From positions 11,788,252-11,852,251 of the forward strand of contig OX328097.1 in assembly GCA_946811185.2 (NCBI GenBank): 64,000 bases of DNA, in the 5' to 3' direction. This stretch comes from Hippopus hippopus. Lineage: Eukaryota > Mollusca > Bivalvia > Cardiida > Cardiidae. Of this stretch, positions 9,498 through 48,036 are shown one piece after another; position 1 is the stretch's first letter, and each line of letters opens with the position of its first letter. Below the pieces are notes generated by a model, which was given only the letters and a program-made list of their open reading frames with translations, had not been told where the DNA came from and did no database searches. Both the position numbers and the translations under genes were made by a program.

Positions 9498-9714
9498 TTA
9501 ACCCTTAGGCTGCTAAGCGCAACTCAAGGACCTTTTGCGGACAGTGTAGATCAAGATCAGACTGCACAGAACGTGCAGTCTGATCTTGGATCTACACTGT
9601 CCGATAAGGCGATATCTTTTCCAAAAAAAAAAATACCTTTGCAATAGCAAATTTTGGTGTTTTACTATCGGCTTGAAAGTTTCACTTTCACTTACTTACC
9701 AGGGTAAAGGTTAA
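9498..9714 (+). mobile_element. Family B copy B7, full length reference
   Basis: TTAACCCTTAGGCTGCTAAG at the left, GGGTAAAGGTTAA at the right. The palindrome is 9537-9604 (68 bp including a one-base bulge), 39 bp from the left end. It truncates the second of two direct repeats (9240-9325 and 9422-9497). Confidence 0.9.
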
Positions 9715-9738
9715 TCCTTTACCATACAACCTCGTGTT

Positions 9739-9967
9739 TTAACACTTTACCAAACTACAAAATTTTAGACTTGTCCAAATTGAAAAGCAGTTGCAGACGA
9801 CAAAATAAACGTGACTCAAAAATTGAAAATTTACTTTAGAAGAGTAGAAAACATTGTGGGAAAAGGAGAAAATGCTGGTTACCAGCATTTTCTCCTTTTC
9901 CCACAATGTTTTCAGAAGGCTTCTTCGTCTGGGTCGTAAAAACCAGGGATTGTTTGGTAAAGGGTTA
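9739..9967 (+). mobile_element. Family C copy C3, full length reference
   Basis: TTAACACTTTACCAAAC to GTTTGGTAAAGGGTTAA. The palindrome is exactly 9847-9913 (67 bp), arm GAAAACATTGTGGGAAAAGG, centre TGCTGGTTACCAGCA. Confidence 0.92.
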
Positions 9968-9969
9968 AA

Positions 9970-10129
9970 GACTCTAACGGAGACTTTTGAAAACACAATG
10001 GGAAATGGTGAAATTGCTGGTAACTAGCATTTACTCCTTTTCTCACGATGTTTTCTACCCTTTCTAAGACAGGTTCCATCATTTCAGATGAATTTTATTT
10101 GTCGTCTGCATACGCTTTCAACTTTAGCT
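9970..10129 (-). mobile_element. Family C copy C4, cut by a tRNA-like SINE
   Basis: CTAACGGAGACTTTTGAAAAC, palindrome with TGCTGGTAACTAGCA, then GTCGTCTGCATACGCTTTC; the sequence changes to the SINE near 10130. Confidence 0.82.
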
Positions 10130-10257
10130 CTTCGGCGCCTTGCCTATGCAGTGCCTTCCCCGAGGACTCCCTCACAAAACTATTGCTGCTAGTTGGGATC
10201 GAACCAGCTTTTACTAAAACCGAAATCACTCCCTTAACCACCAAGCCACGAAGGACC
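10130..10257 (-). mobile_element. tRNA-like SINE (type iv) in C4
   Basis: On the minus strand GGTCCTTCGTGGCTTGGTGG, TTAAGGGAG, then box B GGTTCGATCCC. The rest (AGGGAGTCCTCGGGGAAGGC) has no match to the other types here. Confidence 0.75.
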
Positions 10258-10343
10258 ATGTTTTCTTCAGGAAAATGTAATTGTAACTCTTTAACCGATT
10301 TCCTTTGTATCGTAACTTCCGGGTCCGTACTGACCAACTATTC

Positions 10344-10503
10344 TTTGTCTTATTCCCCAAGATTTTCTAAATTTAAAAGTATTACAACTTCTGATTAGCT
10401 AAACCAAATAGTTTAGCCAATCAGAAGTTTTGTTACTTTCAAATTTAGGAAACTCTGGTATATAAGACTATGGACATTCTTAAGAATGGTTTGTGAATAC
10501 GGA
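10344..10503. mobile_element. Family E fold-back copy E2
   Basis: CTTCTGATTAGCTAAACC ... GGTTTAGCCAATCAGAAG-type arms with TAGTT at the centre; right end TTAAGAATGGTTTGTGAATAC. Confidence 0.8.
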
Positions 10504-10822
10504 CCTAGTAGTGTCATTTCTATTAGAACAAAATCAGCCTGCGAGGTTGTTCAGTCTGATCTATGTCTACTTTTCACGATTGCCAAATCATCATCTCAGC
10601 TTTTCTATAGTGTACCTGTTCAAAATCAACAGGAACACCGTAACTAATGTTGATTATTTCAATCCGTCAGGATGAAAGGAAACAAGTTAAATGCATGAGT
10701 CAGATTTTAATTATTTCTCAGAGCTGAAGGTAAAGGTATATTTTGGAAGCTATCAAAGGAAAACGATTTTCTAACCCTTCTAGCGCCTAAGTCTGCACAG
10801 AATGTGCTGTCTGATCTTAGGT

Positions 10823-11062
10823 ATGAGCCCTGCTCTGTGAAAAGGGGGCCTAATACATCTGCAAAAAGTATCGACCCATGCCAGCCTGCGCAGTTCGCGC
10901 AGGCTGACATGGGTCGAAACTTTTTGACATTTGTCAATTTTATGCATGTTCAAGGACCATTCCACCCCTATATCGAGTCAATTGTAATATTAAATGGACT
11001 TTACGGATCCATACTTATGTGATGTCTTGCTTGGTATAATGCAATAACAGAGCATTGGTCAT
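10823..11062 (+). mobile_element. Family A copy A6, inserted in a family B palindrome
   Basis: It starts ATGAGCCCTGCTCTGTG right after CTGATCTTAGGT, the middle of a B element. The palindrome is intact (about 10861-10927). The right end is shortened to AGAGCATTGGTCAT. Confidence 0.87.
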
Positions 11063-11068
11063 ATATAT

Positions 11069-11333
11069 ATGAGCCTTGCTCTGTGAAAAGGGGGCTTAAT
11101 GCATTTGCGAAAAGTGTCAATTCATGTCAGCCTGCGCAGTCCGCGCAGGCTGACATGGGCCGACACTTTTCGCTAGCTTTAAATTTTCTGCATGTCAAAG
11201 GACAATTCTAACTCATGATTCTGTCGGTTGAGTGACAAAGTGGATTTTATGGATCTATAATTGGGTGATGTCGTGCTCAGTATAGTGTAATACTGAGATG
11301 CATTAAGCCCCCCTTTGCAAGAGCATGGCTCAG
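11069..11333 (+). mobile_element. Family A copy A7, full length, directly after A6
   Basis: ATGAGCCTTGCTCTGTG to GAGCATGGCTCAG. The arm is of the GCGAAAAGTGTC variety, closer to the family F arm than most A copies. Only TATATA separates it from A6. Confidence 0.9.
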
Positions 11334-11549
11334 TTCGCTTGTATATTCAATCCTATACGACAGAAATCTCACTGAGTTTCAGTAGAGTGCGATTCAAACC
11401 GTCTAAAGAGGTACAGTTTATATACTAGTAATTTTTTGGTTCTGACAGAGCTGAATAGCTTTAGTAAAACCTATATTGTGTATACTCATTTTGCGACTCC
11501 TCTTGACAATTTTAGATCAAGTTTTGGGTCGAGAAAAGACGAATTACGA

Positions 11550-11763
11550 AGTAACTCTTTCCATACCATGGAGGACACCAGAAGCTTTTGTAGACAGTGT
11601 AAATCAAGATCAGACTGCACAGAACGTGCAGTCTGATCTCTGATCTACACTGTCCACTGCTTTATTGTAGATTATGACCGAACTATTTCTTGATCTTACA
11701 GAGGAAATGTATTTTTAGCCTTTGAGAAAATTCAAATTATTTATTCAGTAATGAAAGAGTTAA
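11550..11763 (+). mobile_element. Family B copy B9, full length
   Basis: GTAACTCTTTCCATACCATG to ATGAAAGAGTTAA. The palindrome is at about 11590-11657. Confidence 0.9.
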
Positions 11764-12180
11764 AGGACCCTCTCACAGAGAAACTGATCGTTACGAGAAA
11801 TTTATCCATTTGCAACGATGGTACAAACAGGTCTGCGTCAAGACGAAAATACTGGTATGCAAGAAATAATGAGTAATGCAAACCTAGATTTACTGGAGGG
11901 GCAAGTTTAGCTGAAATTTTCTATTAATCAACACTGAAGCGGATTGTAAATTATAGCTTATTAGCCGAAATAAGGTTATTGACCCCTGATTTTTTTTAAA
12001 GGAAAGGGGGGAGGGGGGGGGAACAGTGAGAAGGTTTTTGCCTTCTTTACATTTTATTTTGTACAGATGTCATTAAAATGTCTATGTGCATTGTCTAGTA
12101 CAACTGTTTTAGAAAATCCAGGCTTTGGATATAGAACACTGTTTATCTATAATCTACTCTGCTAAAAAGACGATAAATAT

Positions 12181-12449
12181 ATGAGTCATGCTCTGTAAGA
12201 AGGGTGCTTAATGCGTCAGCGAAAAGTCTCGACTCAGGTCAACCTGCGCAGTCCGCGCAGGCTGACCTGGGCCGAAACTTTTCACTTTTGGTCAATTTTC
12301 TGTATGTCCGAGGACCAGTCTACCTGATGATAAAGTTGGTTGTTTTAAAGAAAAAAGCTATTATGGATCCATAATCCTGTGGTGGCTTGCTTGGTATTAT
12401 GTCTCACGGAGATGCATTAAGTCCCCTTTTGCCAGAGCATGGTTTACAT
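12181..12449 (+). mobile_element. Family A copy A8, full length
   Basis: ATGAGTCATGCTCTGTAAG to GAGCATGGTTTACAT, with arm GCGAAAAGTCTCGACTCA. Confidence 0.88.
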
Positions 12450-12548
12450 GTATATTGCTCCTTTGGTATTCATCGCGGAAAATGCAAACCTTCACTAAGA
12501 CCAGACTCCCCATCCTTGTTTACACTGTTTAATACAAGAGGAGCTATT

Positions 12549-12760
12549 CAACTCTTTCCATACCACAGACGACACCAGGAGCTTTTGTGGACAGTGTAGA
12601 TCAAGATCAGACTGCACAGAACGTGCAGTCTGATCTCTGATCTACACTGTCCACTGTTCTATTCTAGATTATGACCGAACTGTCTCTTGATCTTGCAGAG
12701 GAAATGTATTTTTAGCCTTTGAGAAAATGCAATTTATCTATTCAGTAGTGAATGAGTTAA
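12549..12760 (+). mobile_element. Family B copy B10, sister of B9
   Basis: About 90 percent like B9 along its length, including GACACCAG, GATTATGACCGAAC and TTTGAGAAAATGCAATT. It shares more with B9 than with other B copies, so both come from one subfamily. Confidence 0.9.
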
Positions 12761-12911
12761 GAGACATTGCTTCCCTCAAAAACTATAATTTTTATTATGG
12801 ATAAAGCTCCTTTGGTATTCATCGCGGAGAATGTAGACTTGCACTAAGATCAGACTGCCGATCCGTGCTTACACTGTTTTATGAAAGAGGAGCTATCTTA
12901 GCTCTTTTATC

Positions 12912-13098
12912 ATTATTTGACAACAACATCGATGATGGTTATGTGGGAAAGCAGACAGTGGCTTGGAAAGAAAAATGTGCGGAGTACTGGTAAAAGAGAC
13001 TCCAGTAAAGCATGGATAGGTGCACTAGCCGCCGCGATATAACTGAAATATTGTTGAAAACGGCGTTAAACACCATTTAAACGATCAATCAATCAATT
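12912..13098 (+). mobile_element. SINE 3' part (type i)
   Basis: GATGGTTATGTGGGAAAGC, CAGTGGCTTGGAAAG, GCCGCCGCGATATAACTG, GGCGTTAAACACC and the tail ATCAATCAATCAATTG. Confidence 0.86.
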
Positions 13099-13142
13099 GA
13101 TAACCTGTAGATAATGGATAATGACAGGGTCCACAAGGCACC

Positions 13143-13313
13143 TTAACTCTGTGACAGGCGACAACATTTTAGATTTGTCCCATATTGCATACGAAAAAAT
13201 AAATGTGGCCAAATAATTAAATCTGTCTTTGAAAAGGTAGAAAATATTGTGGAAAAGGTGAAGATGATGGTTACGTCCGTGACGTACAAACTCATGATCA
13301 TTCAGTAAAGGAT
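13143..13313 (+). mobile_element. Family C copy C5, right palindrome arm missing
   Basis: TTAACTCTGTGACAGGCGAC through GAAAATATTGTGGAAAAGG; after GATGATGGTTACGTC the complementary arm is absent. The end is TTCAGTAAAGGATT. Confidence 0.78.
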
Positions 13314-13527
13314 TCACCTTTAGGCTGCTGATCGCGACTCACTGACCTTTTGCGGACAGTGTAGATCAAATATCAGACTGCACAGAGCGTGCAGTCTGAT
13401 CTTTGATCTACACTGTCCGATAAGATGATATATTTTCTTAAAAAAATAAGTTTGAAATAGGAATATTCGGGTTTTTATTATCGGCTTGAAAGTTTCATTT
13501 AACTTATTCAACAAGGATAAGGCTTAA
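13314..13527 (+). mobile_element. Family B copy B11, full length
   Basis: CACCTTTAGGCTGCTGATCG to ACAAGGATAAGGCTTAA. Both arms carry an extra A, so the usual one-base bulge is absent here. Confidence 0.88.
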
Positions 13528-13674
13528 CACGCACTCAACATTCTAAGATTATTGCTTAAGTGGATCATAAATTATGGCTTTATTAGTCAAATATAAGTTT
13601 ATTGACCCCCAAGAATTCTTTCGGAGACGACCTCTGCTTTATCCATAGCATTAAATTTGTTGTTTTGTTTTTGT

Positions 13675-13938
13675 GTTTAGCGCCGTTTTCAGTAACATTT
13701 CTGTCATATCGCGGCAGCCAGTGCACTTATCTATGCATTTCTGGACGTCTTTTTACCACTATTTCTAACACTATTCATCCCAAGCCACTTGCTGCCTTCC
13801 AACATTACCACCGTCGTAACAATGATCAGCGGTGAGAGAGGAAAGAATTCTGTCACAATGACTATCATTGATCCGCGTAAAGAAGTTGGCATAGCCGGGG
13901 ATTCAAACTAGCGACACCCTGGTCTCAAGTTAAGATGC
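13675..13938 (-). mobile_element. SINE (type i) just inside the Rho intron
   Basis: Minus-strand head GAATCCCCGGCTATGCC, body GATCATTGTTACGACG, tail side TGTTACTGAAAACGGCGC. Its head end is about 20 bases downstream of the donor of the exon at 13959-14116, in the same direction as the gene. Confidence 0.84.
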
Positions 13939-13944
13939 CCCTCA

Positions 13945-14440
<496 letters not shown>

Positions 14441-14800
14441 AAAGTAACAGTAAAGGCCAAATGTAAACAGGGCGGGTGTTTAAATTTTATCATACCATTT
14501 AAAAGTATGGAAATAATTGTGAAGATGACAATCTGTCATTGTACGGTCGGTCCAAGTGTTAGTCGCTGACAGAGAAATTAATTTCAAAATTAGGTTAAAA
14601 CCTGCCAGGTAGCTGTGTCTTTTGTTTACTTTTTGGCTGATTTTAAAATTCTATTCTCTGCCAGCGACTAACATATGGTCCGACCACACGATAACAGATT
14701 GTCATCGCCACAATATTTTCCGTACTTTTAAATGGTATGATTTAAATTTAAATGTATTATGACACCTGCTTTGATATTTTGGCCTTTACTGGGCCTTTAA
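14441..14800 (+). mobile_element. Family D copy D2
   Basis: AAAGTAACAGTAAAGGCCAA to TTGGCCTTTACTGGGCCTTT. It lies about 320 bp upstream of the minus-strand Rho exon. Confidence 0.86.
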
Positions 14801-14839
14801 GATTTCAAAGGCTTGTCTTGTTTATTCACGGATCAAAGC

Positions 14840-15051
14840 TTAACCCCTAGGCTGCTAAGCGCGACTCAATGACCTTTTGCGGACAGTGTAGATCAAGATC
14901 AGACTGCACAGAACGTGCTGTCTGATCTTGGATCTACACTGTCCGATTAAGACATATTATTCCCCAAAATACAACTTTGCAATAGCAATATTTGTGTTTT
15001 TAATATCGAATTGAAAAATTTATTTCAGTTATTTAGTAGGATAAGAGTTAA
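14840..15051 (+). mobile_element. Family B copy B12, full length
   Basis: TTAACCCCTAGGCTGCTAAG to TAGGATAAGAGTTAA. The palindrome is at about 14879-14946. Confidence 0.9.
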
Positions 15052-15382
15052 CGATCATCCTTATTTTTCATAGAAAGTTTCTAAGTCGTATGCTGCAAAT
15101 TTGTTTCAAGAGGTCAATCAGTTAAACTGTTTTTTTTTTTGGCAATAAACGTTATCTTCTAGTATCCAATAAAAAGAATGCTTATCATTATTTTTTATTT
15201 ACTAAACATGTGTTTTATGATGATAATCCACTTCACCACAATCTGTTTACTGTCCTTGTCGGTAATATAGCATCTTGTCGGTAAACACTCTATCTCCGAC
15301 CAGATTGCTCTTGACCCTTCGTCTACAAAAGTCAATATAACATCGCTTACCTGGTGTTCCTTGATTTTCCAGCTGTTATATA

Positions 15383-15790
15383 ATACGTTAAACTTTACTC
15401 ACAGTGACAAATGAAGTGTGCCAAGGTTACCTTACACGTTTAGCTTTGCTCGCAGTAACGAAATAAAGTGTACCAAAGTTACCTTACACGCTTAGCTTTA
15501 CCTTTGCATAGTAACAAAATGAAGTGTACCAAGGTTACCTTACTCGTTTAGCTTTACATGCATTAACAAAATGTACCAAGGTTATCTTACACGTTTAAAT
15601 TTGCTCGCAGTAACTAAATAAAGTGTACCAAGGTTACCTTACACATTCAAATTTACTGGCAGTGAAAAAAGTAAAGTGCGCAAGGTTTCACCAGCACGTT
15701 TAATTCAGCTTGCAGTAACGGAATGAAGTGTTCCACGGTTACCTACACGTTTAATTCTACTCGTAGTTACGAAATGAGGTGAGCCTAGGT
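15383..15790 (+). repeat. Tandem array, about 8 units of 51 bp
   Basis: Unit words ACGTTTAGCTTTGCTCGCAG, TAACGAAATAAAGTGTACC and AAGGTTACCTTAC repeat with moderate divergence and small indels. Confidence 0.87.
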
Positions 15791-16042
15791 TCAGTAGGAT
15801 GAATTTGACCATCCACCACGAAATTCAATAATTCTCTAATATTCTGTTATGGTCTCTCATTTTCAATCCCATGTTGCCGAATTATGACTTTTCACACACA
15901 CTGTATATTAAAGAAGAGAAAAGAATTTCTGTATACATGTATTCTGATTCTGCTCTGCACCAAAGTGCCTGTGAGCATTTTCTATAAGTATGAAAAAACC
16001 CAGTCTTTGCAAATTCAATATTTATCGGAGTATTTCACAAGC

Positions 16043-16122
16043 AACGGACAGTGTTTATCTAAGCCTCAGATGTTACGTTTTGTGAGGTCTGATCTTGATC
16101 TACTCTGTCTACAAACGCAACA
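16043..16122 (-). mobile_element. Family B palindrome B13, decayed
   Basis: ACGGACAGTGTTTATCTAAG and GGTCTGATCTTGATCTAC remain; the loop region is altered. Confidence 0.68.
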
Positions 16123-16385
16123 AAAATTGCCAAAAAGCGAGCATAGATTTTATCATTTGTATGGAACCACCTGCCAAGTTTAAATTGTGTGGGACGGCCT
16201 GTGAACCCTAAAATTATGTTGCTATTATAAAGTTTGATGAAGATTCCTGAGAAATATCATGATCGATATGCCATGTCTACCGTTTATGCTGACTTTCTGC
16301 CAGGAAATTTGCCACAATAATTCCTAGGAATTTATGTACAGAGTTACAATCAATGCTGTTTATCCACATTTTACTAGAACGCCTT

Positions 16386-16626
16386 TATTTTTCACCAAAC
16401 AATTCCTTATTTTCACGACCTTAATTAAGGAAAATGGCTTGTGAAAAACCTTGTGGGAAAAGGAGAAAAGGCTGGTAACCAGCATTTTCTCCATTTTTCA
16501 CAATGTTTTCTACCATTCCACAGAAAAACAACATAATTTTTATGCACATAAATAATTCTACATTGTCATTTGCAAATGCTGTCCATGTGGACGTATCTAT
16601 AATACTATGGTTTGGGAAAGGAATAA
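16386..16626 (-). mobile_element. Family C copy C6
   Basis: ATTTTTCACCAAACAATTCC to GGTTTGGGAAAGG; the palindrome is at about 16449-16515. Confidence 0.82.
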
Positions 16627-16655
16627 AAGTCACCTGGTTGCTTAAGTTTAAACAT

Positions 16656-16911
16656 ATGGGCCATTATCTGGCAAAACGGGGCTTAATGCATCTCCGTTAT
16701 ATATGATACCAAGCAAGACATCACTTAGCTATGGATCCATAAAATTCATTTTGACTAACAACTGTCTGAATCATGAGATAGACTGGTCTTTTGAAATGCA
16801 GGTATTTAACAAATAACAAAAAGTTTTGATCCAGGTCAGCCTGCGCGGACTGCGCAGGCTGACCTGGGTCGATACTTTTTGCAGATGCATTAAGCACAAA
16901 GCACGGCTCAA
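16656..16911 (-). mobile_element. Family A copy A9, full length
   Basis: Starts ATGGGCCATTATCTGGC; ends GCACGGCTCA after a short deletion in the CCCCCTTTT tract. The palindrome is at about 16818-16883. Confidence 0.87.
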
Positions 16912-16917
16912 ATTTAT

Positions 16918-17112
16918 TATTTTAGATCGAGAGAAAAACAAGTTCTTACAACTAATACTAATCTCTCTCGATTCTGCTTCCTGGGAACTACACCAGTACT
17001 CGCGCCGAATGTGTGGGCCAATCAAAAATCCCAAAGTTGACATCCTCTCCCGGGTATCGAACTCGGGACCTTATGGTTTCGAGGCCGACGCTCTACCTCA
17101 CAACCACGGACA
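16918..17112 (-). mobile_element. tRNA-headed SINE (type v)
   Basis: Complement: GTGGTTGTGAGGTAGAGCG, TCGGCCTCGAAACC, box B GAGTTCGATACCCGG; downstream GTACTGGTGTAGTTCCC. The 3' side is AT-rich and joins A9. Confidence 0.77.
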
Positions 17113-17870: not shown

Positions 17871-17931
17871 ATTCTAAAACTCCATTGTTAACAACGATCT
17901 GTGGTATAATGGCAGGTCTTCATTTATCACC

Positions 17932-18194
17932 GAGACGTGCTCTGGCAAAAGAGGACTAGATGCATCTTCGCGATGCATGATACCAAACAAGTCATCACAG
18001 TATTATACATCCATAAAAATCCATTTTATATAAAAACTGACTGAATTATAGGGTACACTGCTCCTCTCAGCCGCAGAAAATTGACCAAAAGCAAAAAGTT
18101 TCGACCCAGGTCAGCCTGCGCGGACTGCGCAGGCTGACCTGGGTCGATACTTTTTGCAAATGCATTAAGCCCCCTTTTCACAGAGCTTGGCTCA
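17932..18194 (-). mobile_element. Family A copy A11, full length
   Basis: GACGTGCTCTGGCAAAAG to CACAGAGCTTGGCTCA; the palindrome at about 18090-18157 is perfect in its core. Confidence 0.88.
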
Positions 18195-20130: not shown

Positions 20131-20634
20131 CAATAATTTCGAAAGTCAATAGTAACCATGTATTTTTGTTTTCCATTTTATACGAGCACTTAAACTTTAA
20201 TACTGAATTACGTGTATATACAAAAGAATATATATATCTAAAGCAACAACCACAAGGGGTATTAAGAATTATTTAGGAATGTACATGTAGTTATCGTTTA
20301 ATAGATTCGAGCTGTGCTCTAGGAAAGGCGGTTTAATGCATATGCATAAAGTATCGACCCATCATAGCCTGCGCGGTCCGTGCAATAATTTCGAAAGTCA
20401 ATAGTAAACATGTATTTTTGTTTTCCATTTTATACGAGCACTTAAACTTTAATACTGAATTACGTGTATATACAAAAGAATATATATATCTAAAGCAACA
20501 ACCACAAGGGGTATTAAGAATTATTTAGGAATGTACATGTAGTTATCGTTTAATAGATTCGAGCTGTGCTCTAGGAAAGGCGGTTTAATGCATATGCATA
20601 AAGTATCGACCCATCACAGCCTGCGCGGTCCGTG
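20131..20634 (+). repeat. 252-bp tandem duplication, nearly identical
   Basis: Units 20131-20382 and 20383-20634 differ at only a few bases (GTAACCATG/GTAAACATG, ATCATAGCC/ATCACAGCC). The join lies in the centre of a family A palindrome. Confidence 0.93.
20306..20382 (+). mobile_element. Family A copy A12a, cut inside the palindrome
   Basis: The first copy of a 252-bp tandem duplication ends here at GCGCGGTCCGTGC, the centre of the palindrome. Confidence 0.85.
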
Positions 20635-20814
20635 CAGGCTGACACGTGTCGAACCATTTTGCTTTTTGTAAATTTTCTGCATGTGTCCTATCTATGGATT
20701 CAGCCGGTTGTTACACAAAATGGATTTTATGGATCCATAATTATGTGATGACTAGCTTGGCATAATGCATCACGGAGATGCTTTAAACGCCCTTTTGCCA
20801 GAGCATGGCCCATT
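20558..20814 (+). mobile_element. Family A copy A12b
   Basis: The second copy continues through the palindrome to GAGCATGGCCCAT. Both copies share AGGAAAGGCGGTTTAATGC, a private variant of the family end. Confidence 0.87.
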
Positions 20815-20961: not shown

Positions 20962-21173
20962 TTAAACTCGAGGCTGCTATACGCGATTCGGCGACCTTTT
21001 GAGGGCAGTGTAGATCAAGATCAGACTGCACAGAACGTGCAGTCTGATCTTGGATCTACACTGTCTGATAAGGAGATATCTTTCCTCCAAAATTACCTTT
21101 ATAATAGTAAAATTAGGGTTTTTACTTTCGGCTTGAAAGTTTCGTTTCATTTATGTAGCAGGATAAGAGTTAA
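20962..21173 (+). mobile_element. Family B copy B16, full length
   Basis: TTAAACTCGAGGCTGCTATA to GCAGGATAAGAGTTAA. Confidence 0.89.
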
Positions 21174-21338
21174 ACCAATATTTATTTAGGAGGGAAATAG
21201 CATCGTCAACTCGAACTGAAATTTTGTTTTGTCTATTTGAAATTGCTTGAAATTGTGTAATAGATGCAGAACTAAAAATATTTCGTTTGATTTACCACAG
21301 ACGAGTAATGGTTCAAAAACCGTAAGAACCGACATTAA

Positions 21339-21540
21339 CGCTTATCCTAGTAAATAACTAAACTGAAATTTTTCATTTTGATAGTATAAAGCAAAAATAT
21401 TGCTATTTCAAAGTTATGTTTTGAGAAATGATATCTCCTTATCGGACAGTGTAGATCCAAGATCAGACTGCACGTTCTGTGCAGTCTGATCTTGATCTAC
21501 ACTGTCCGCAACAGGTCAGTGACTCGCACTTAGCAGCACA
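21339..21540 (-). mobile_element. Family B copy B17, near full length
   Basis: CGCTTATCCTAGTAAATAAC at the left; CTCGCACTTAGCAGC at the right, followed closely by A24. Confidence 0.85.
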
Positions 21541-21603
21541 GTGTATAACAAAATATTGAATTCCAAGATAAGTACTATGATTGGCCGCTTCATGTACAAT
21601 GCA

Positions 21604-21745
21604 CATAAGTCATGCTCTACGGAAAAAATGAGTTCAATGCGTCTGAAAAAAGTGTCGACCCAGCTAAGTCTGCACAATCCGCACAGGCTGACCTGGGCCG
21701 ATAATTTTTGATAATGGTTAATCATTTCTGTATGTCAAAGCACTA
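21604..21745 (+). mobile_element. Family A copy A24, 5' part
   Basis: AAGTCATGCTCTACGG, then a diverged palindrome (about 21648-21711), ending after TTTCTGTATGTCAAAG. Confidence 0.75.
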
Positions 21746-22507: not shown

Positions 22508-22763
22508 ATGAGCCGTGCTCTGTGAAAAGGGGGCTTAATGCATCTGCAAATAGTATCAGCCCTGGTCAGCCTGCGCAGTCTGCCCTGGGCCGAAACGTTT
22601 TGCTATTGGTCAATTCTCTGCATGTCAAAGGACCAGTGTATCCTATGATTCATTCTGTTGTAAGACAAACAGGATTTTATGAATCCATAGCTGTGTTATG
22701 ACTTGCTTGGTATCATGCATCACGGAGATGCATTAAGCCCCCTTTTGCCAGAGCATGGCTCAC
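22508..22763 (+). mobile_element. Family A copy A14, palindrome arm deleted
   Basis: Both ends are good (ATGAGCCGTGCTCTGTG, GAGCATGGCTCA). The centre reads GCGCAGTCTGCCCTGGGCC, a deletion of about 12 bp from the right arm. Confidence 0.88.
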
Positions 22764-26243: not shown

Positions 26244-26477
26244 ATGAGCCATGCTCTGTGAAAAAGGGGCTTAACGCATCTCTGTGATAGATCCATAAAA
26301 TCTGTTTTCTATAACAAAACTACCGAATCATGAAGTACACTTGTCCTTCGACATGCAGAAAATTTACGAAAAGGAAAAAATATCGGCCCAGGTCAGCCAG
26401 CGCAGACTGCGCAGGCTGACCTGGGTCGATGCTTTTTGCAAATGCAGTAAGCCCACTTTTCACAGAGCAGGGCTCAT
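26244..26477 (-). mobile_element. Family A copy A16
   Basis: ATGAGCCATGCTCTGTG to CACAGAGCAGGGCTCAT, with a deletion after CTCTGTGAT. The palindrome is at about 26375-26440. Confidence 0.87.
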
Positions 26478-29750: not shown

Positions 29751-30075
29751 TAAACCTTTACGACACAGTCCCGACTTTTAACGACCCATGGGAATAGTCC
29801 TTTTGAAAACATTGTGGGAAAAGGAGAAAATGCTGGTAACCAGCATTTTCTCCTTTTCCCACAATGTTTTCTACCCTATCCAAGAGGGAAATCATCATTT
29901 TAGCAACGTTTAATATGTCGTCTGCATATGCTTTGAATTTGGCTCAGTCCAAAATTTTGTCGTTTTGTAAAGACTTTTAAAGAAAAGAAAATCTATCATT
30001 TGAACCACATCGAATCGTCTGCAAATGCTTTCAATATGGACAAAGACTAAAAGTTTGCTGTTTGGTAAAATGTTA
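29750..30075 (-). mobile_element. Family C copy C12 plus a second C 3' end
   Basis: A full copy to GTCGTTTTGTAAAGAC (about 29965), followed by a second piece carrying GTCTGCAAATGCTTTC and CTGTTTGGTAAAATGTTAA. Confidence 0.82.
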
Positions 30076-30790: not shown

Positions 30791-30900
30791 AGAAGCGGAT
30801 AGTGTAGATCAAGATCAGACTGCACGTATGCAGCCTGATCTTGATCTACACTGTCCGCAAAAATATATCCATGGTCGCTTTTGGCAGGCAAAGAGTTAGG
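30791..30900. mobile_element. Family B copy B18, partial
   Basis: GCGGATAGTGTAGATCAAG pairs with CTTGATCTACACTGTCCGC without a bulge; the loop is shortened to CACGTATGCAGC. Confidence 0.75.
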
Positions 30901-31837: not shown

Positions 31838-32050
31838 ACTCTTTTACTACCAACTCAAGAAATTCGACCTTTTTTTCGAGGCCTAAGAGTAGATTTCCAC
31901 TATTAATGAAGATAAATTTGGTCGTAATCTAGCACTAGATAGCGGATGGTGTAGATCCAAGATCAGACTGCACGTTCTGTGCAGTCTGATCTTGATCTAC
32001 ACCATCCGCAAAAGCTTTCTTAATTCGTCACAAGTAGTGAAAGAGTTAAT
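31838..32050 (-). mobile_element. Family B copy B19
   Basis: ACTCTTTTACTACCAACTC to GTGAAAGAGTTAA. The palindrome at about 31944-32011 starts with the bulged arm. Confidence 0.84.
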
Positions 32051-32437: not shown

Positions 32438-32704
32438 ATAATCCATGCTATGTGAAAAGGGGGCTTAATACACCTGCAAACAGAATTTCACACAGGTCAG
32501 CCTGCGCAGCCCGTGAAGACTGACCTAGGCCAAAACACTTGCTGTTGGTAAATTTTTGGCATGTCCAACAACTATTCTACCTTATGATCCAGTCGATTGT
32601 TCGACAAACATCGATTTGATAGATTCATAATTATGTGATGACTTGCTTGGTATAATGCTCCACGGAGAATCATTAAGCCCCCTTTTGTCAGAGCAGAGCT
32701 CATA
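32438..32704 (+). mobile_element. Family A copy A17, abutting a B copy
   Basis: ATCCATGCTATGTGAAAAG to GAGCAGAGCTCAT. It follows the AGCAGGATTAAGATG end of a family B copy almost directly. Confidence 0.85.
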
Positions 32705-39902: not shown

Positions 39903-39981
39903 TACAACAGTGATTATAGTTTCATAAAATAAAAAAAAAAAACGGTTAAAAAGCTTGATGAAAACGAGTGAAGATGTATGT

Positions 39982-40156
39982 TTAAGCCGATAGTTAAAAC
40001 CCAAAATTTTGCTATTTCATGTATTTAGGGTGGGGGAATATCTCCTAATCGGACAGAGAAGATCCAAGATCAGTCTGCACGTTCTTTGCAGTCTGATCTT
40101 GATCTACACTGTCCGCAAAAGATCCTTGAATCGCGCTTAGCAGCCTATAGGTCAAT
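39982..40156 (-). mobile_element. Family B copy B21
   Basis: TTTAAGCCGATAGTTAAAAC to GCGCTTAGCAGCCTATAGG. The palindrome is at about 40049-40118. It abuts the right half of the family G copy. Confidence 0.83.
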
Positions 40157-40544
40157 ACTAATTGTAACATAAACTGGGTAACAAGTTAACAGGTCCAATA
40201 TTTCTGAACGCAGCCTGTACATAACTGATCTATTCTGTATACTTCCAGAGATTAATTCTCCGATAAACCCCCTCGTTTACTTTGGTTAAGAGAGATGGAA
40301 ATAATATTACTTCTCTTGCACCTTTGTCTCTCCCACGTCTCGTTATACCTCGCCACCGCTTGTAAAATCTACGATCTCAGTGAATTTCACGCATCTGTGA
40401 ATGCAACAGTGCTCTAGATTCCGAGATATTCCTGAAAAATACTCGTCTAGAATGAAACTTTTCGAACAAAGAGTTTTGAAAAAGCATCATCTTTTGCCTA
40501 TTCTGTCATAATAATTTCGTTTTATCCTATACTATACAAATTCG
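40157..40544. other. No recognised feature
   Basis: Unique-looking sequence. Confidence 0.6.
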
Positions 40545-40670
40545 AGTTAAATAACCGACTGAATCATGAGGTAGATTAGTCCTTTGACATGCAGAAAATT
40601 GACCAATGCAAAAAAGTTTCGACCCCAGTTCAGCTTTACACAGCATTTTCACAGACGAAGGCCCATATGT
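40545..40670 (-). mobile_element. Family A copy A19, palindrome reduced
   Basis: ACCGACTGAATCATGAGG through AAAAAGTTTCGACCCC and then CACAGCATTTTCACAGA. Most of the palindrome is deleted. Confidence 0.75.
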
Positions 40671-41689
40671 AAGTGGTCCCCCAATGGCCAAATTCGAAGA
40701 AAAACCAAATTATATACTACTCATTACCTTCATCCTCATCGAATATTGCAACAGTAGCGCTACTGCTAATTCGGACTACTTTTTACTACTTGGACGCGGG
40801 AGCAGTCTCTCTGTTGTGCGACACCCTTAGGCATTGCTCTTACCCCGGCTTTTGAGTGGCTTTAGAGTGGCTTTTTTCAACGCAACTGAATGCGCTGGCT
40901 TTTAACCTACTTCTTAATATTATTCGAGTAAATGAATAGCAAATTGCAACATGTCAAAATTTGGTCATTATTGTTTATTCTGCGGACCCTGCAGGCCTAT
41001 TTTCACGCATGGTTACTTTTCGCAATCTCGCTAAATATTAAACCACATTGTACATTAATATTCTAGTATTTCCTACGCCATATATCTCTTTTAAAAGCTA
41101 TTTCTAATTTTTAATGATACCATTATATTAAAAATTCTTTATTCGCACTGCCATCTGGCGTCAAATTCGAAGGACAGTGTGATGCAAGCTTATGAGTTAA
41201 AATCGACATTAATTAATTTTGATATAGGTTTAAACAAAATTTCAGTAGTCTTTAATTTTGTACACAACGTGATGACTAGATGTGTGAATGAATCGGTTGA
41301 TAACTAGATTGACTGATAGATGTACTGATATATAGATGGAAGAAAGAGAAGTTAAAAAAATTAATGAAAGGACGGGTGGATTAATGGGTAAAATTTTAGA
41401 CCAAACTGTTAGGGAGGTATAAAACTTGGTATGAAGCACACGTGAACCCTAGACAAACCACAAGACTTGCAGTCATTCCTTATACAAATCTCTGACTCAA
41501 GTCGCAGTAAATGACATCTCGTGTTAGACTTTGCACAGTCGGTCGAAAAGAAATAACAGTCTGTGCTTAATCACAGCAGTCTCGTGACGTTTTATACGCT
41601 GTTTCATTGACATCAAAGAAAAGAGCGTGTCCTTTTTGTGAAATAAATCAATCTCTTACAAACCCATGGACTGCCTTTCAGTCTCTTTT
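40671..41689. other. Repeat-poor stretch, no gene recognised
   Basis: About 1 kb without any of the families described here. Short frames only. Confidence 0.6.
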
Positions 41690-41765
41690 TCGGTCATTGT
41701 AGATCAAGATCAGACTGCACAAAATGTGCAGTCTGATCTTGTATCTACATTGCCCGCTAAGCTGA
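41690..41765 (+). mobile_element. Family B palindrome B22, ends lost
   Basis: CGGTCATTGTAGATCAAG pairs with CTTGTATCTACATTGCCCGC. Confidence 0.75.
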
Positions 41766-41813
41766 GACATTCCAACTAATACTAGCCCTGAAACTGTAAT
41801 TATTTGGGGGTTT

Positions 41814-42224
41814 TACCTCTAGGCTGCTAAGCGCGAGTCACGAACTTTTGCGGACAGTGTAGATAAAGATCAGACTGCACAGAACGTGCAGTCTGATCTT
41901 TGATCTACACTATCCGATAAGGAATTATCTTTCCCCCACAAACTACCTGTCAAATAGCAAAATTTGGGTTGATACTCTCGGCTTGAAAGTTTCATTTCAC
42001 TTATTTAACCCTTTCAGCGAAAACAACGACTTTTGCGGACGGCATAGATCAAGATCAGACTGCACAGAACGTGCAGTCTGATCTTTGATCTATACCGTCC
42101 GCTTGTGTAGTCAAGCCTATACAATCGAAATCTTTTTAAGTTTCAATGGATTGTGTTTAGAGCCGTCGAAAGAGGTCGAGTTTATTTATTTGACGCTGAA
42201 AGAGTTAGCAGGATTAGGGTTAAT
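41814..42224 (+). mobile_element. Family B copy B23, split by B24
   Basis: The left part runs CCTCTAGGCTGCTAAGCG to CACTTATTTA; the end GCAGGATTAGGGTTAA returns at about 42207 after B24. Confidence 0.85.
42009..42205 (+). mobile_element. Family B copy B24, inserted in B23
   Basis: ACCCTTTCAGCGAAAAC to TTGACGCTGAAAGAGT, with the palindrome GCGGACGGCATAGATCAAG ... CTATACCGTCCGC. The host B23 sequence TTTAGCAGG is split at its TTA/TA. Confidence 0.84.
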
Positions 42225-42597
42225 TTGACTAAATTTCGATTTTGTTCATTTGGAGCTGTGTAGGTTTAAAAGTAACGTTACAGCCCAGTTCCATGCTCCG
42301 CCAGTTTTCCTCCGAATAATCAGCATTCCATCATTGACAGTCAAACCTTTTTATAAAGAAAAGAATGTTTCTTAGTTATCTATCGTATGTCAATTACTGT
42401 TTCGTCTCGTTAATAATTCCCCCTTTTTTTTTTCTTTTACCAAAAGTTTTTAACCCCACAAATGTTACATGGCATAATCAGGCTATAGCGTGCCAAATAA
42501 ATGTGATAGACATTTTTGCTTATAGAAAACGTTGGTTTTATTCACAGACCATAGTTAACACCTTCAAATAACAGTCATTTCTTGTACAGGGCTGCGT

Positions 42598-42749
42598 TCC
42601 AATAGACTGTGTAGATTTGCACGAATAGAATTATTCAGGATTGTATATACACGCATACGATCCTTGCTTTACCAAAAGGTATGAGCTGGCGTAGCTAGGC
42701 AACTATTTACTCAAATCGTAAAGTTATACAGTTTCGTGAGACTATTCGA
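42598..42749 (+). repeat. Dispersed repeat H, copy 1
   Basis: Shares AGACTGTGTAGATTTGC-type start, CCTTGCTTTACC, AAAGGTATGAGCTGGC and TCGTAAAGTTA-type words with 50946-51086. Function unknown. Confidence 0.7.
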
Positions 42750-43089
42750 GGGCCTCTGGTGACGCTTTTTTTTTTTTCAAAGTTATCTTTCTTTTTTATT
42801 GCAGAGTGTATGTAACTGCGTTTTTTGCGTACAGGCTGCAACGTCCCTGACAGAGATATATTAACCCCCCCCTTTAGTCAGAACGTGACTCAATTGTCCT
42901 TCGAACATCTTTTCTGTGACGGCTTGGAGAGAAAAGGGGGCCAATTTTTCATGAATGAAACTCAAGATATGGAGAAAGAAAGCAAATGGAGAAAAAGCTC
43001 GTCTTGAGCAATTTCTTCAGTTTTTGCGATGCTTTAAAATGCTAGATACTGCGATGGAGTTAATCAGGGTCTGCAAGATGGTTTAAACG
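42750..43089. other. No recognised feature apart from a possible A end
   Basis: ATTAACCCCCCCCTTTAGTC to GAACGTGACTCAATTG (42858-42896) resembles the right end of family A. Confidence 0.5.
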
Positions 43090-43317
43090 TTAAACTTTTT
43101 ACCACACAATCCCTAGTTTTAACGATCCTGAGAAAAAATGCCTTTGAAAACATTGCGGGAAAAGGAGAAATGCTAGTGACCAACATTTTCTCCTTTTCCC
43201 ACAATCATTTCTACTCCTTTACAGACAAATTCCATGATTTCAGCCATTTTTAATTGTCGTCTGCAAATGCTTCCTATTTTGGAAAAGATTAAATAATTGT
43301 CATTTGGTAAAGAGTAG
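43090..43317 (-). mobile_element. Family C copy C16, full length
   Basis: TTAAACTTTTTACCACAC to CATTTGGTAAAGAGTA. It lies 73 bp before the composite copy C17. Confidence 0.87.
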
Positions 43318-43441
43318 AAAGACAAGATGAAAGAAATCTGGCAGAATGTTTAAAGTTACATTGGCGACCTCAAATACCGGTTAGTCGAATTTAAAAGTTT
43401 GCCACACGATAAAAACATAGACGTGTTCAGATTGAAAGCAT

Positions 43442-43749
43442 ACGGAGCCCTGTAGGTGTCATGCTCATGCTCTACACATTTTTTATTTCGAAATAACGAA
43501 ATGCTAAATCGTTCAAACGAAATACTAATTCGAGAAAACGAAATGGGTATGTTCGGAACACTTGGTTGTCATCGTCCGCCATGGCCATGTGAGATGAGTC
43601 ACGATTTAGTATTTTGTTTTCTCGAAATAGCATTTCGTTTTATCGAAATAGCATTTCGTTTCCTCGAAATAGTATTTCGTTTGAACGAATTAGGATTTCG
43701 TTATTTCGAAATAAAAAATGTGTAGAGCATGACACCTACCGGGCTCCGT
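43442..43749. mobile_element. 308-bp fold-back element with 8-bp duplication
   Basis: The arms start ACGGAGCCC and end GGGCTCCGT and stay complementary for about 60 bp through GGTGTCATGCTC...CTCTACACA. The right arm carries four tandem units of about 21 bp of the form CGAAATAGCATTTCGTTT. The flanks GAAAGCAT (43434-43441) and AAAAGCAT (43750-43757) are an 8-bp duplication of the host family C sequence with one mismatch. Any open reading frame here is a by-product of the repeats. Confidence 0.85.
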
Positions 43750-43800
43750 AAAAGCATTTGTAGACGACATTTTATATGTGGCTCAAATGAGAGAATTTGT

Positions 43801-45476
43801 ATGGTGGCATATTTCTGCCGCGTAATACGAGATAGCTATTGCGATAATTTAAGAGAACTATCGTGATAAAACAAAGTTTCCTGAAAGTATTATCTAGATA
43901 ACAAAAATTTTCATGATAAAAATATCGCGTTAATTCTACCTGTTATCATGATTTTTTTTCTCTTTGGTGCCCATAACTGACATTCATGGTATCCATAATT
44001 AGATACGGTTTCGGAACAACTTCGTCTACACCCTTATGCATTCTCCTTTTCCCTGAATGGTTTTAACGTTGTTCGTAGGAGGCATTTCGAGTCGTCTTTG
44101 TAATTTTACAGACTTCTGTTTATTTCGAGTATTCTCAAAATTTAACAATTAAGCTACAATTATTAATGATTCGAATTTTTACTTACTGCAATCTTGTGAA
44201 GTCAAAAACTACCGAGTTCTTCCAAATGATAAATTTTCTGTTTATAGATATGTGGCACGATTGTATTTTGAGTACTTCAGTACTTTGATTCTTACAGTCC
44301 TTCATTTCCTTTCATTTCTTTCCATTGAGTTCCTTTGCTTACGCATGAGATTCGCTCACGCAGCCCCCGTGAATTTGGCAGAGCGGCAAAGACAGTCAGA
44401 GCGAGCAGACATTGAATTTAGATACTTTTCTGTTAAATTACTGCTTCTTATTTTTACATTCGGTATTCTATTTGTATGTATTTCATGCAGCTAGGTTTAT
44501 ATACGCTGGCATTTATTTATACATGTTTTCGTTCAGCTTATTCTGAATTGTAATGAGTTTTCGTGTCAATAGCTTTGCGCGTCGTTGGAAATGGCAGCAT
44601 TCATTCTCTTTTAGATTTCTAACATTTCATTAATAGGAAAAGGAGGTTTTTATAGTTTACTATAACACATGCACATTTTAATTACAGTTTCTAGTGTAAC
44701 AGCACAGCTCAGCACAAGAGTGGTTGACCTGGAGAGAGTAATTGTATTTGGACATGTACTCAGTTCCTCAAACTGGTGAGTGGAATGTGGATGTATTTGT
44801 GTTTGAAAGTGTATGTTTGTATGCTTTTATGTTCCTCTCAACTATCCGTTCTCTGTGTTTAGGGCACTAGAACTGTATGTGTTTAGCTATATGTTGTATT
44901 TAGTGTTTTAATTGTCTTTTGCCTTGTCCTAGGACTAGCAGCAAGGCTAAAGATAATTAAAAGGAATTCCTACATGTCTGAACTACATTATTTCTTTTTT
45001 CAGAGAAAGGCAGACGATTTCTTTCTGTGTATTTAGTTTGTTTTATTTGTATATTTTTCAGATGCAACTTACTACTGTTATTGTACTGTTACTGTACTGT
45101 AACTTCAACTTTAACCTTGACTTGTGATTTCAACTGTAATGATTAAACAGTAACCACTGCGAGTGTTGTTTTGACTCTAGTGAAGCCCACAGAATTCAGC
45201 TTACTTGTATTGACATAGTAGCTAGCTGGAGCCTCGTGCTCACCCTAGGACCATACTACTACAGATATCGAGAAACAGATAGAACTATCACGATAATTTT
45301 ATCTCGAATGTCAGCTTCGTGCACGATTGAGAAATTTTGCGTTAAAATATTAAGTTTATCGTAATATGTTTTTCAGGATTTCGATAAAATTTCCAGGAAA
45401 CCTTAATTTATTGCGATAGTTTTCTAAACTTATCATGATAGCTATCTCGTATCTCGTGGCAGAAATATGCCACCAT
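43801..45476. mobile_element. 1.68-kb TIR element, hAT-like, inside a family C copy
   Basis: The ends are inverted repeats: ATGGTGGCATATTTCTGCC at 43801-43819 and its complement at 45458-45476, with a further 60-100 bp of diverged inverted similarity rich in GATAGCTAT and TCGTGATAA words. Flanks GAATTTGT (43793-43800) and AAATTTGT (45477-45484) form an 8-bp target duplication with one mismatch, as expected of hAT elements. No transposase is seen. The interior holds an 80-codon ORF (44252-44494) with two hydrophobic stretches and an acceptor/donor-bounded open segment near 44687-44776; neither is recognised. Confidence 0.82.
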
Positions 45477-45789
45477 AAATTTGTTTTTAAAAGGGTAGAA
45501 AAAATTGTGGGAAAACGAGAAAATTTTCTCCTTTTCCTACAATTTTTTCAAAAGGCTTCTTCCTCAGCGTCGTTAAAACTCTGGATTGAGTGGTAAAGGG
45601 TTAACAAATATCATACTTTTGTCTGCCGCTTATTTCATTCGCAAAAAGATTGGACAAAGATCAGATTAAACAACGGTACATTCTGGTCTTGGTCTACACT
45701 TTTCGTTACCATAGTAACTTAATATAGTTTTTACTTAATTGGTAAGTTCATCTTTGACAATGTTTGTACTACAAAGTGTCAAAGTATAT

Positions 45790-46002
45790 TTATCCTTTGG
45801 CTGCTAAGCGAGACTCAAGGACCTTTTTGCGGACAGTGTGGATCAAGATCAGACTGGACAGAACGTACAGTCTGATCTTGGATCTACGCTGTCCGTAATG
45901 GAGATATCTTTTCCAAACGAATACCTTTGAAATAGCAATATTTTAGTTTTTACTGTCGGCTTTGCAGTTTCATTTCACTTGTTTAGCAGGAAAAGAGGTA
46001 AA
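45790..46002 (+). mobile_element. Family B copy B25, full length
   Basis: TTATCCTTTGGCTGCTAAGC to TTAGCAGGAAAAGAGG. Confidence 0.87.
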
Positions 46003-46081
46003 CTTTTAAACTGTTACGCAGGACCTAAGGCGCTTTTGCTGGCACATTAAATCGAGATCAGATCCCTAAGAACGTACATTG

Positions 46082-46460
46082 ATCAATCCATCCATCCATC
46101 CCCCCATCCATTCCCCCACATCCATCCATCCATCCATTCCCCCACATCCATCCATCCATCCATTCCCCCATCCATTCCCCCACATCCATCCATCCATCCA
46201 TTCCCCCACATCCATCCATCCATCCAACCATCAATCCATCCATTCCCGCCAATCTATCGATCGATCCATCCATCCATCCATCCGTCCGTCAGTCCGTCCG
46301 TTCCATCAGTCCATTGATCCATTCCCACCCCATCCATCGATTCATCCATCTATTCAACCCATCCATCGATCGATCAATAGATCCATCTATCCATCAATCC
46401 CTTCATCCATCCATCCATCCATCCATCCATCCATTCCACTCATTCATTCATTCATACTTA
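46082..46460 (+). repeat. (ATCC)n-derived minisatellite
   Basis: About 380 bp of CATCCATCCATC, CCCACATCCATCC and TCGATCGATC words; an uninterrupted frame of 130 codons of Ser/Ile/His/Pro results. Confidence 0.95.
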
Positions 46461-46611
46461 CAACAGGGTGAACTTTGCACATTAACCAGTCGGTCAGTCA
46501 ACCTATACGATCTCATAGTCTGGTTATTAACCACTGTTTCCCCAAATATAGCGAAGAAAACAAAATAAATACGATGCACTTAGACGACACGACCATATTT
46601 GGGGCGAATAA

Positions 46612-46821
46612 TTACTCTTTTCTGCCTCCATAGGCGAACAAAAGAAATTTTGCGGACGGTATAGATAAAGATCAGACTGCACAGAACGTGCAGTCTGATC
46701 TTAAATCTATACCGTCCGCTTTTTCAGTCAAGCCTAAAAGATACTAGAAGTAATCATTCTGAGTTGCCATAGATTGTAATTTTATCTGTCCGAAAGAAGT
46801 TGGTTTTATATGTTAGAGTTA
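46612..46821 (+). mobile_element. Family B copy B26
   Basis: TTACTCTTTTCTGCC to TATGTTAGAGTTA. The palindrome is of the GGACGGTATAGAT variety. Confidence 0.83.
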
Positions 46822-47034
46822 TTGGTAAAATCAAATGCCCAGCGTGACATTGGTGTCGTAATAATTGTACCCTGCCGATTTAATAATCCGACTCAAAAAC
46901 ATCTGATTATGAAATACGGTCAAAGACGAGAACGTTGAACTCTCTATTGTGTCATCATTCTTTGTTGATACTTTTTGTTTGTGAGTTTAACTTGATTTTT
47001 CTTTCGTCGGATATGCGCGTTTATACGCCTTATT

Positions 47035-47258
47035 GATAGAGAAAATCAAGTAAAAGTAAATAAAAGCCACAGCCATCTGCCAGCTTTTTATCTAGATTGA
47101 AAATTCCTTTTCCCGCCAGCGACACTTGGACAGACTGTACAATATCAAATTGCCATCTTCACAATAATTTCCATACCTTTAAATGATATGATTTAAATCT
47201 AAATGCATTTTTACACCAGCGTTGTATACTTTTGGCCGATACTGGGTCTTTGCGAAAG
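47035..47258 (+). mobile_element. Family D copy D4, left third missing
   Basis: AAATAAAAGCCACAGCCATC through CCCGCCAGCGACACTTGG to GGCCGATACTGGGTCTTT. Confidence 0.77.
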
Positions 47259-47766
47259 CAGGATGGCATGTTGCCATTGGGACTCCACCCATTTCTATGA
47301 CATCAGAAATGACGTCATTTGCGTTATTTGCATACCATTACAATAATTGTTATTGATCACGAGACATCACAACAAGCCTTAGTCAAATTCTGGCACGAAA
47401 TCTGAAAAAACATTAATAGACTACGTATCCCGTCAAGAAAATACTATCAAAAAGGTCTGGCTTGTTTTTTTCTTATACTTCTACATTCACGGTTTTCCAG
47501 TAATAAAAGAATGTTTGGGTTCTTTTGATTATAAAAGTCTAATAACACCCCTTTTAGGGTTTAAACGAGAAACGTTGTAGCAATGGCAAAGTAACAGGTT
47601 GAGAGGTATATTGACAGAAAAGTAGCTGCTGTATTTATATACAACTGACAAAACAAAACAAAGAGCAAAAATCGGGCGAACGAAAACACCAAGGCGATGA
47701 ATCACCGCTGTACGTTATTGAACTGCACTGCGTGAGCCGCTTGGCTTTCTGATTCTTTCAGCGTGA
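47259..47766. other. No recognised feature
   Basis: Unique-looking sequence with GACATCAGAAATGACGTC near 47300. No exon recognised. Confidence 0.6.
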
Positions 47767-48036
47767 AATATGGCCTGCAACACAAAAAAAGGGACTTTCG
47801 GACATTTGCGTAAAGTGTCGTCTCGGATCTGCCCGCGCACTCCGCGCAGGCTAATCCGAGATGGCACTTTACGTCAACATTACACTTTGTCATACATTAG
47901 ACTTGCGTGAAACAGAAAATCACACACGATCGGAAAGTGTCGTCTCGGATCAGACTGCGCGGACTGCGCAGGCTGATCCGAGACGACACTTTACGCAAAG
48001 GTCCGAATGTCCCATTTCGCGTGTTGCAGGCCATAT
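47767..48036. mobile_element. Family F element: two 67-bp palindromes in one TIR unit
   Basis: The ends ATATGGCCTGCAACAC and GTGTTGCAGGCCATAT are inverted repeats, followed by GGGACTTTCGGACATTTGCG and its counterpart. Palindromes lie at 47808-47874 and 47930-47996, each 67 bp, with arm GCGTAAAGTGTCGTCTCG and core GATCAGACTGCGCGG. The first starts 41 bp from the left end; the second stops 40 bp from the right end. The core matches those of families A and B in register. Confidence 0.85.

Follow-up and report, generated by a model that had tools for sequence, protein, structure and literature searches.

A 67-bp palindrome apparently common to two lineages of miniature transposons in Hippopus hippopus

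Miniature inverted-repeat transposable elements (MITEs) with a long self-complementary segment have been described in bivalves before. Repeat 1 of Lucina pectinata is a MITE-like sequence of 210 bp with imperfect terminal inverted repeats (TIRs) of 30 bp and a 77-bp self-complementary segment (PMC4732748). It is placed in introns and promoters of globin genes, fragments more than 80% similar are reported from other molluscs, and repeats 1 and 2 have a short segment in common; direct repeats flanking the element were not seen by its authors (PMC4732748). Shorter palindromes are known from piggyBac and piggyBat, where subterminal copies are bound by dimers of the C-terminal domain of the transposase, and the left and right ends are unequal (PMC11707139). 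Here, we describe a 67-bp palindromic module found in three kinds of short element, A, F, and B, in a 64,000-nt stretch of the Hippopus hippopus genome (GenBank assembly GCA_946811185.2, contig OX328097.1, positions 11,788,252 to 11,852,251 of the forward strand; hereafter the window). An earlier note on this DNA had proposed that A, B, and F are three transposon families with unrelated ends, whose palindromes are related, change in pairs on both arms, and are kept by their structure after having been exchanged or inherited. Our comparisons indicate that the modules are homologous but belong to two lineages, A/F and B, and we propose a role for them at the transposon end.

The module consists of two 31-nt arms flanking a 5-nt centre. 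The window holds 56 copies (19 A, 35 B, and 2 F, typed by best-matching query), and when palindromes with 20 or more of 30 pairs were sought without bias, 66 separate ones came to light, as opposed to 0, 3, and 0 uncollapsed hits in three Markov sequences. The arms and cores quoted in the earlier note are all present at their positions, and its A variants with GCGAAAAG arms exist as well, with modules at 11107, 12219, 60566, and 62954; the coordinates it gave for these variants (11069, 12181, 60405, and 62921) fall at or near element edges. In the genome as searched (1.07 Gb in 34 contigs), the B arm 31-mer has 12,485 exact matches, the A arm 31-mer 2,419, a 34-mer from the F end 6,868, and a 15-mer from the F core 199, whereas the reversed controls have 0. 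A further 200 kb of genomic DNA was taken around 20 of the 199 F-core sites and is therefore enriched in F. Rfam gave no match in the window at the gathering threshold, and a tRNA scan returned none. The elements that carry the module are short, non-coding, and present in high copy number and have TIRs, which are the features by which MITEs are recognized.

That the A, F, and B modules are homologous is indicated by several comparisons of their sequences. The left arms are identical at 24 of 31 positions between A and F and at 21 of 31 both between A and B and between F and B, values that none of 200,000 shuffles with composition preserved equalled in any of the three comparisons. The same holds for the right arms of A and F (23/31; 0/200,000). 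Core identity amounts to 28/31 for A and F, 26/31 for F and B, and 23/31 for A and B; the earlier note had given 25/31 for the first two pairs. Eight other palindromes from the same genome, anchored at their centres, match A, F, B, or one another at no more than 14 of 31 positions; when the arms are slid by up to 3 nt, the values rise to at most 15 against A, F, or B and at most 18 among themselves. Finally, the centre is asymmetric, reading AGTCC in both A and F and AGAAC in B, and its orientation relative to the nearest element end is identical.

By sequence, A and F represent sister forms within a single lineage of 263 bp. Consensus sequences built from 16 of 31 A pairs and 17 of 24 F pairs are both 263 bp long, with the module 37 nt past the first TIR base. 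The ends of A and F, both of which contain GAAAAGGGG, align so well that 2 of 2000 shuffles were as good, whereas the end of the unrelated family C gave 1918 and 312 of 2000; in all end comparisons the F query was the window's own copy, and the four target bases were included. The claim of unrelated ends is thus not borne out for A and F; between A and B, no likeness of the ends was detected. Aligned over their whole length, the A and F consensus sequences score 185.5 (best of 200 shuffles, 109), with much of the score coming from the module; the interior alone gives a weaker signal (15/1000 shuffles). In A, the TIRs match at 35 of 37 positions, and the module is found at the left end only. 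In F, it is present at both ends and lies inside the TIR, which in the consensus is perfect over 79 bp and matches at 99 of 104 positions across TIR and module. At the site of the missing outer arm, A retains 14/31 identity, which is perhaps a remnant of the module.

The insertion flanks of A and F carry an A at position -3 on the left in 42 of 47 elements and a T at +3 on the right in 41 of 47. The two weak bases (WW) between are duplicated in 25 of the 47, compared to 14.6 after permutation (0/5000 for the pooled set; singly, 12/25 for A with 22/5000 and 13/22 for F with 112/5000). The remaining 22, whose WW bases do not match, include 9 F elements, of which 7 have AT opposite TA. For A, this test of target-site duplication used 25 of the 31 pairs, leaving out six longer than 300 bp; for F, it used 22 of the 24, leaving out two in which the start is shifted or altered. 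We read the target as a 4-bp AWWT duplication.

B is, judging by its termini, a distinct piggyBac-like TTAA-CCC MITE lineage of about 213 bp. In the consensus sequences of the subfamilies B1 and B2, and in the best copies, the element starts and ends with TTAA adjoining CCCTT or CTCTT, and many single copies retain one intact TTAA only. The B1 consensus ends are TTAACCCTT and AAGGGTTAA. The termini TTAACCCTT and TTAACTCTT have the 5'-CCC/CYC form of piggyBac, where Kolobok termini would be 5'-RR (PMC9587614). The module is found on one end only. Its depth was determined for the 78 of 128 B-type modules that score at least 60 bits, by seeking a TTAA-like end at 34–44 nt: such an end was found for 52 of the 78, as opposed to 280 of 3,000 random positions, and 35 of these 52 modules have a depth of 39 or 40 nt. 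Between B1 and B2 the module is identical at 63 of 67 positions, the outer 39 nt at 26 of 40, and the interior at 70 of 123. The ends of B show no detectable likeness to those of A (172/2000 shuffles as good for B1 and 1002/2000 for B2) and a weak likeness to those of F (21/2000 and 110/2000). The module is therefore common to distinct transposon lineages, as the earlier note had it, but to two of these rather than three.

The behavior of the two arms differs between and within families. An alignment of 36 of the 56 window modules, the nearly full-length ones (34 distinct), has both-sided change at 16 of 31 pairs. Both-sided cells number 144, compared to 58.7 in shuffled data (0/500), counts that are dominated by the A–B split and that tally sequences, not events; further pair types are less striking (36 vs 32.5; 19/500), and the signal vanishes when the partner columns are slid by 1 to 3. 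Between consensus sequences, A and B differ at 10 pairs on both sides and at 1 on one side, F and B at 9 and 2, and A and F at 7 and 2, with pairing in both consensuses at 4 of the 7. Within families, counted over the 152 of 250 modules that score at least 70 bits, one-sided cells outnumber those that are both-sided and paired 122:29 in A, 195:7 in F, and 219:35 in B, that is, 4 to 28 times; the F majority sequence used here, and in the consensus comparison, mixes left and right modules. Both-sided cells of any kind exceed the expectation under independence in A (39 vs 13.4) and B (49 vs 21.7), probably due to subfamilies, and lie near it in F (11 vs 8.5). Change that is paired between families and one-sided within them suggests that palindromy is kept in the lineages that spread and mostly lost in inserted copies. 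The preservation by structure claimed previously thus fits the family consensus sequences, while in single copies most changes are one-sided.

We take module homology and the usual depth as established, together with the lineages, their targets, and the paired changes between consensus sequences, and propose, with a probability of roughly one half, that the module is a subterminal transposon-end site in both A/F and B that binds a dimer. Measured from the outside of the duplicated target, the module starts 39–40 nt in, with one orientation, and its conservation, orientation, and near-constant depth suggest that it works as part of the transposon end. The two arms would be matched sites for a dimeric DNA-binding protein, either a transposase domain or a host factor, which on binding would help the end complex assemble. 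Masters would remain palindromic as their half-sites change together, while dead copies would decay freely, and two matched half-sites would explain both patterns. The presence of the module in two lineages would reflect either descent from a common end or capture of one element's end by another. Exchange, which the earlier note offered beside inheritance, is not singled out by our results: the depth of 39–40 nt and the common orientation fit an inherited whole end or a positional constraint equally well.

A number of observations weigh against this proposal. The right arms of A and F match that of B at just 16 of 31 positions (390 and 249 of 200,000 shuffles as good, for A–B and F–B, respectively), because the right arm of B is one base longer and was compared ungapped, and the outer 18 nt alone are also weaker (A–B 11/18, 334/200,000; F–B 10/18, 1,071/200,000). 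The F consensus has mismatches in its inner arms. Since the module is missing at one end of A and B, it cannot be required at both ends. The palindromes of piggyBac and piggyBat, at 14–19 bp, are very much shorter, and unrelated palindromes about as long as the module occur in the same genome (arms of 33 nt in family C and of up to 31–34 nt in families D and E), which could indicate a hairpin role based on length instead of one binding site. Lastly, ten piggyBac loci and one pair of F ends yielded no autonomous element that carries the module.

Among the other explanations, it is possible, though we lean against it, that A, F, and B belong to one superfamily, such as Sola, whose Sola3 members target TTAA, and that the module is an ancestral part of the end, with nothing having moved between families. 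Module depth and orientation, which are the same in A/F and B, agree with this, as does the slight excess of likeness between the outer ends of F and B1. The AWWT targets of Sola2 elements (PMC3627910) point the same way, but the ends of A resemble neither B1 nor B2 detectably, and B starts with TTAACCC or TTAACTC, where the piggyBac ends recognized in this genome start with TTAACCC. We regard as rather doubtful a scenario in which an end module was captured across superfamilies with different transposases and targets (AWWT and TTAA), its fixed depth being due to one shared DNA-binding, perhaps host, factor.

The module could also be a passive passenger, its paired changes resulting from arm-to-arm correction in masters, through template switching or hairpin repair, and not from selection. 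The near-independence of both-sided changes in F would suit this, but we consider it unlikely given the both-sided excess in A and B (though subfamilies may cause it), the nearly constant depth, and the fact that, between the B subfamilies, no other part is conserved as well as the module. Quite unlikely as well is a role as RNA, with a transcribed 31-bp hairpin that is processed or sequestered in the manner of MITE-derived microRNA precursors. For single representatives of A, F, and B, the minimum free energy of folding lies between -51.3 and -55.3 kcal/mol, with z between -11.8 and -12.7, and several unrelated palindromes of 64–70 bp are present in the genome; however, any palindrome would fold so, and neither the fixed depth from the element end nor the TIR status in F would be expected. 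Chance or convergence of palindromes as the source of the match between A/F and B is highly improbable. Hairpins can look alike, and a loose core pattern was matched by four bacterial contigs, but these lack the outer arms and were taken as chance, and both the left-arm shuffles and the poor matches of the other palindromes speak against it. The same pattern was found in 0 stretches of viral contigs.

The genome contains 119 matches to the piggyBac transposase (PF13843). At 10 of these the flanks were read, and both ends were recognized at 5 loci, with three kinds of terminus, none of which carries the module; the recognized ends start with TTAACCC. The best matches in this set (L033–L052) are mostly free of inner stops and have the distinct termini TTAACCCTTTATATAC, TTAACCCTAGTCATGC, and TTAACCCATATATGCC. 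Modules near 3 of the 10 loci (L033, L038, and L042) were read as separate MITEs and not as partner ends, and a convergent pair of F ends 3.8 kb apart, considered as an autonomous element, proved to be two MITEs. The earlier note had suggested looking for a transposase encoded by an autonomous copy; none could be tied to the module at these 10 loci or the F-end pair. Protein searches with translated elements gave no candidate for an A-type element. The translated F element matches one 109-residue ENA protein (E 2.3e-7), by eye of F type with both modules, which reaches at most 66% identity in this genome (150 scored of 83,351 first-look candidates) and so is probably from another genome. The B translation matches 27 ENA proteins, of which 14 have E <1e-3; each contains the module peptide with no more than three differences, and the flanks differ. 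For one of these (P0006), the first 20 residues are covered by none of the places listed in this genome (150 scored of 103,912 candidates). F-like and B-like elements thus probably occur in other genomes, as far as such translated matches can tell. Similar repeats are also present in other bivalve assemblies.

Other palindromes are frequent in this DNA. Family C is a second palindromic MITE, unrelated to those above; its palindrome, 67 bp overall, has arms of 33 nt around a 1-nt centre, and the ends of the element are TTAA-CYCTTTACC. The family is found in the window between 5263 and 60871 (e.g., 9847–9913, 29805–29871, and 55533–55599) and makes up 71 of 179 palindromes in 264 kb. Families D and E have unrelated sequences (window 2317, 10376, and 19154; L018 3086; L019 1979), so that several families here turn out to contain palindromes of ~64–70 bp. 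Longer ones have arms of 73 nt (L018 7178, whose sequence resembles window 23712) and of 69 and 49 nt (window 35184; L024 3323). At L054 815–1999, a B element immediately precedes the remainder of a 395-aa open frame and is in frame with it; by eye, the open frame looks cysteine-rich and secreted, and the B element is possibly 5' exon or promoter material. Two open frames at L023 (2–688 and 730–1275, both on the minus strand), one with a weak Pfam TBP match (E 2.7e-5) and the other with none, perhaps derive from an integrated large DNA element. Pieces of Mariner/Tc1-type transposases (DDE_3, HTH_48) are found at L022 8216–8731 and L013 6901–7359.

Table 1. Elements and modules of types A, F, and B in the window (window coordinates); the window has further, more diverged modules beyond these rows.
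Feature	Position	Strand	Source
F element, 263 bp, TGGCC...GGCCA, module each end	47771..48033	.	element pairing
F module, left	47808..47874	+	module scan
F module, right; RNA fold -51.3 kcal/mol	47930..47996	-	module scan
A element, 263 bp; module 8405-8471	8246..8508	-	element pairing
A element, 263 bp, GCGAAAAG variant; module 11107-11173	11070..11332	+	element pairing
A element, 265 bp, GCGAAAAG variant; module 12219-12282	12182..12446	+	element pairing
A element, 264 bp; module 18091-18157	17931..18194	-	element pairing
A element, 232 bp; module 26375-26439	26245..26476	-	element pairing
A element, 264 bp; diverged module 32490-32536	32439..32702	+	element pairing
A module, partial	155..194	+	module scan
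A module	524..590	-	module scan
A module	1149..1215	+	module scan
A module	10861..10926	+	module scan
A module	16817..16882	-	module scan
A module, diverged	20596..20662	+	module scan
A module, diverged	21647..21710	+	module scan
A module with deletion	22546..22603	+	module scan
A module	58519..58582	+	module scan
A module, GCGAAAAG variant	60566..60632	-	module scan
A module, GCGAAAAG variant	62954..63020	+	module scan
B element, TTAA both ends, 217 bp; module 9537-9603	9498..9714	+	ends calculated from module-end distances
B element, TTAA both ends, 212 bp; module 14879-14945	14840..15051	+	end search
B2 subfamily element, TTAA-like ends, 213 bp; module 12587-12653	12548..12760	+	end search, consensus
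B2 subfamily element, TTAA-like ends, 213 bp	11551..11763	+	end search, consensus
B element, TTAA-like ends, 215 bp; module 13352-13419	13313..13527	+	end search
B element, TTAA-like ends, 214 bp; module 21443-21509	21335..21548	-	end search
B element, TTAA-like ends, 212 bp; module 6221-6287	6115..6326	-	end search
B element, TTAA-like ends, 213 bp; module 45829-45895	45789..46001	+	end search
B module	21003..21065	+	module scan
B module	30796..30858	-	module scan
B module	31943..32009	-	module scan
B module	40050..40116	-	module scan
B module	41691..41756	+	module scan
B module	41850..41916	+	module scan
B module	42035..42101	+	module scan
B module	46652..46718	+	module scan
B module	48124..48179	-	module scan
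B module	53873..53937	+	module scan
B module	59690..59754	+	module scan
B module	61357..61414	+	module scan

Transposon families are defined by their ends and targets. If one end module does work with different targets, ends would be put together from interchangeable pieces, and several MITE families could be amplified together by one factor. These families are present in very high numbers in their host, and the question can be tested with existing bivalve assemblies. In the literature covered, with most subscription journals outside its scope, we found no account of a module common to bivalve transposon families, and five of the sequence strings, sought in the text of papers, gave nothing relevant, the sole match being a mouse paper. 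The sharing of the module across lineages seems to be new.

Among described elements, those of the pearl/CvA/DTC84 and Cg_HINE groups resemble A, F, and B in being abundant, non-autonomous, and in some cases palindromic bivalve elements, but they are described as carrying tandem repeats, and HINE as having Helentron features (PMC5139131, PMC7492417), whereas the A, F, and B consensus sequences have TIRs and, by eye, no repeat array. An identity as Helentron/HINE elements, with a tandem-repeat core, subterminal inverted repeats, and a 3' palindrome, was accordingly rejected for A, F, and B, which have TIRs and target bases. Sola2 has the same 4-bp AWWT target duplication as A/F (PMC3627910). 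The piggyBac superfamily shares with B the TTAA target, the CCC termini, the subterminal palindromes, and the unequal ends, but its palindromes measure 14–19 bp and that of B 67 bp (PMC11707139). For the architecture, the closest precedent is Lucina repeat 1, whose 210 bp and 77-bp palindrome compare with the ~213 bp and 67 bp of B; the segment common to Lucina repeats 1 and 2 is not linked, in the section that describes it, to separate transposon lineages, unlike the module described here (PMC4732748).

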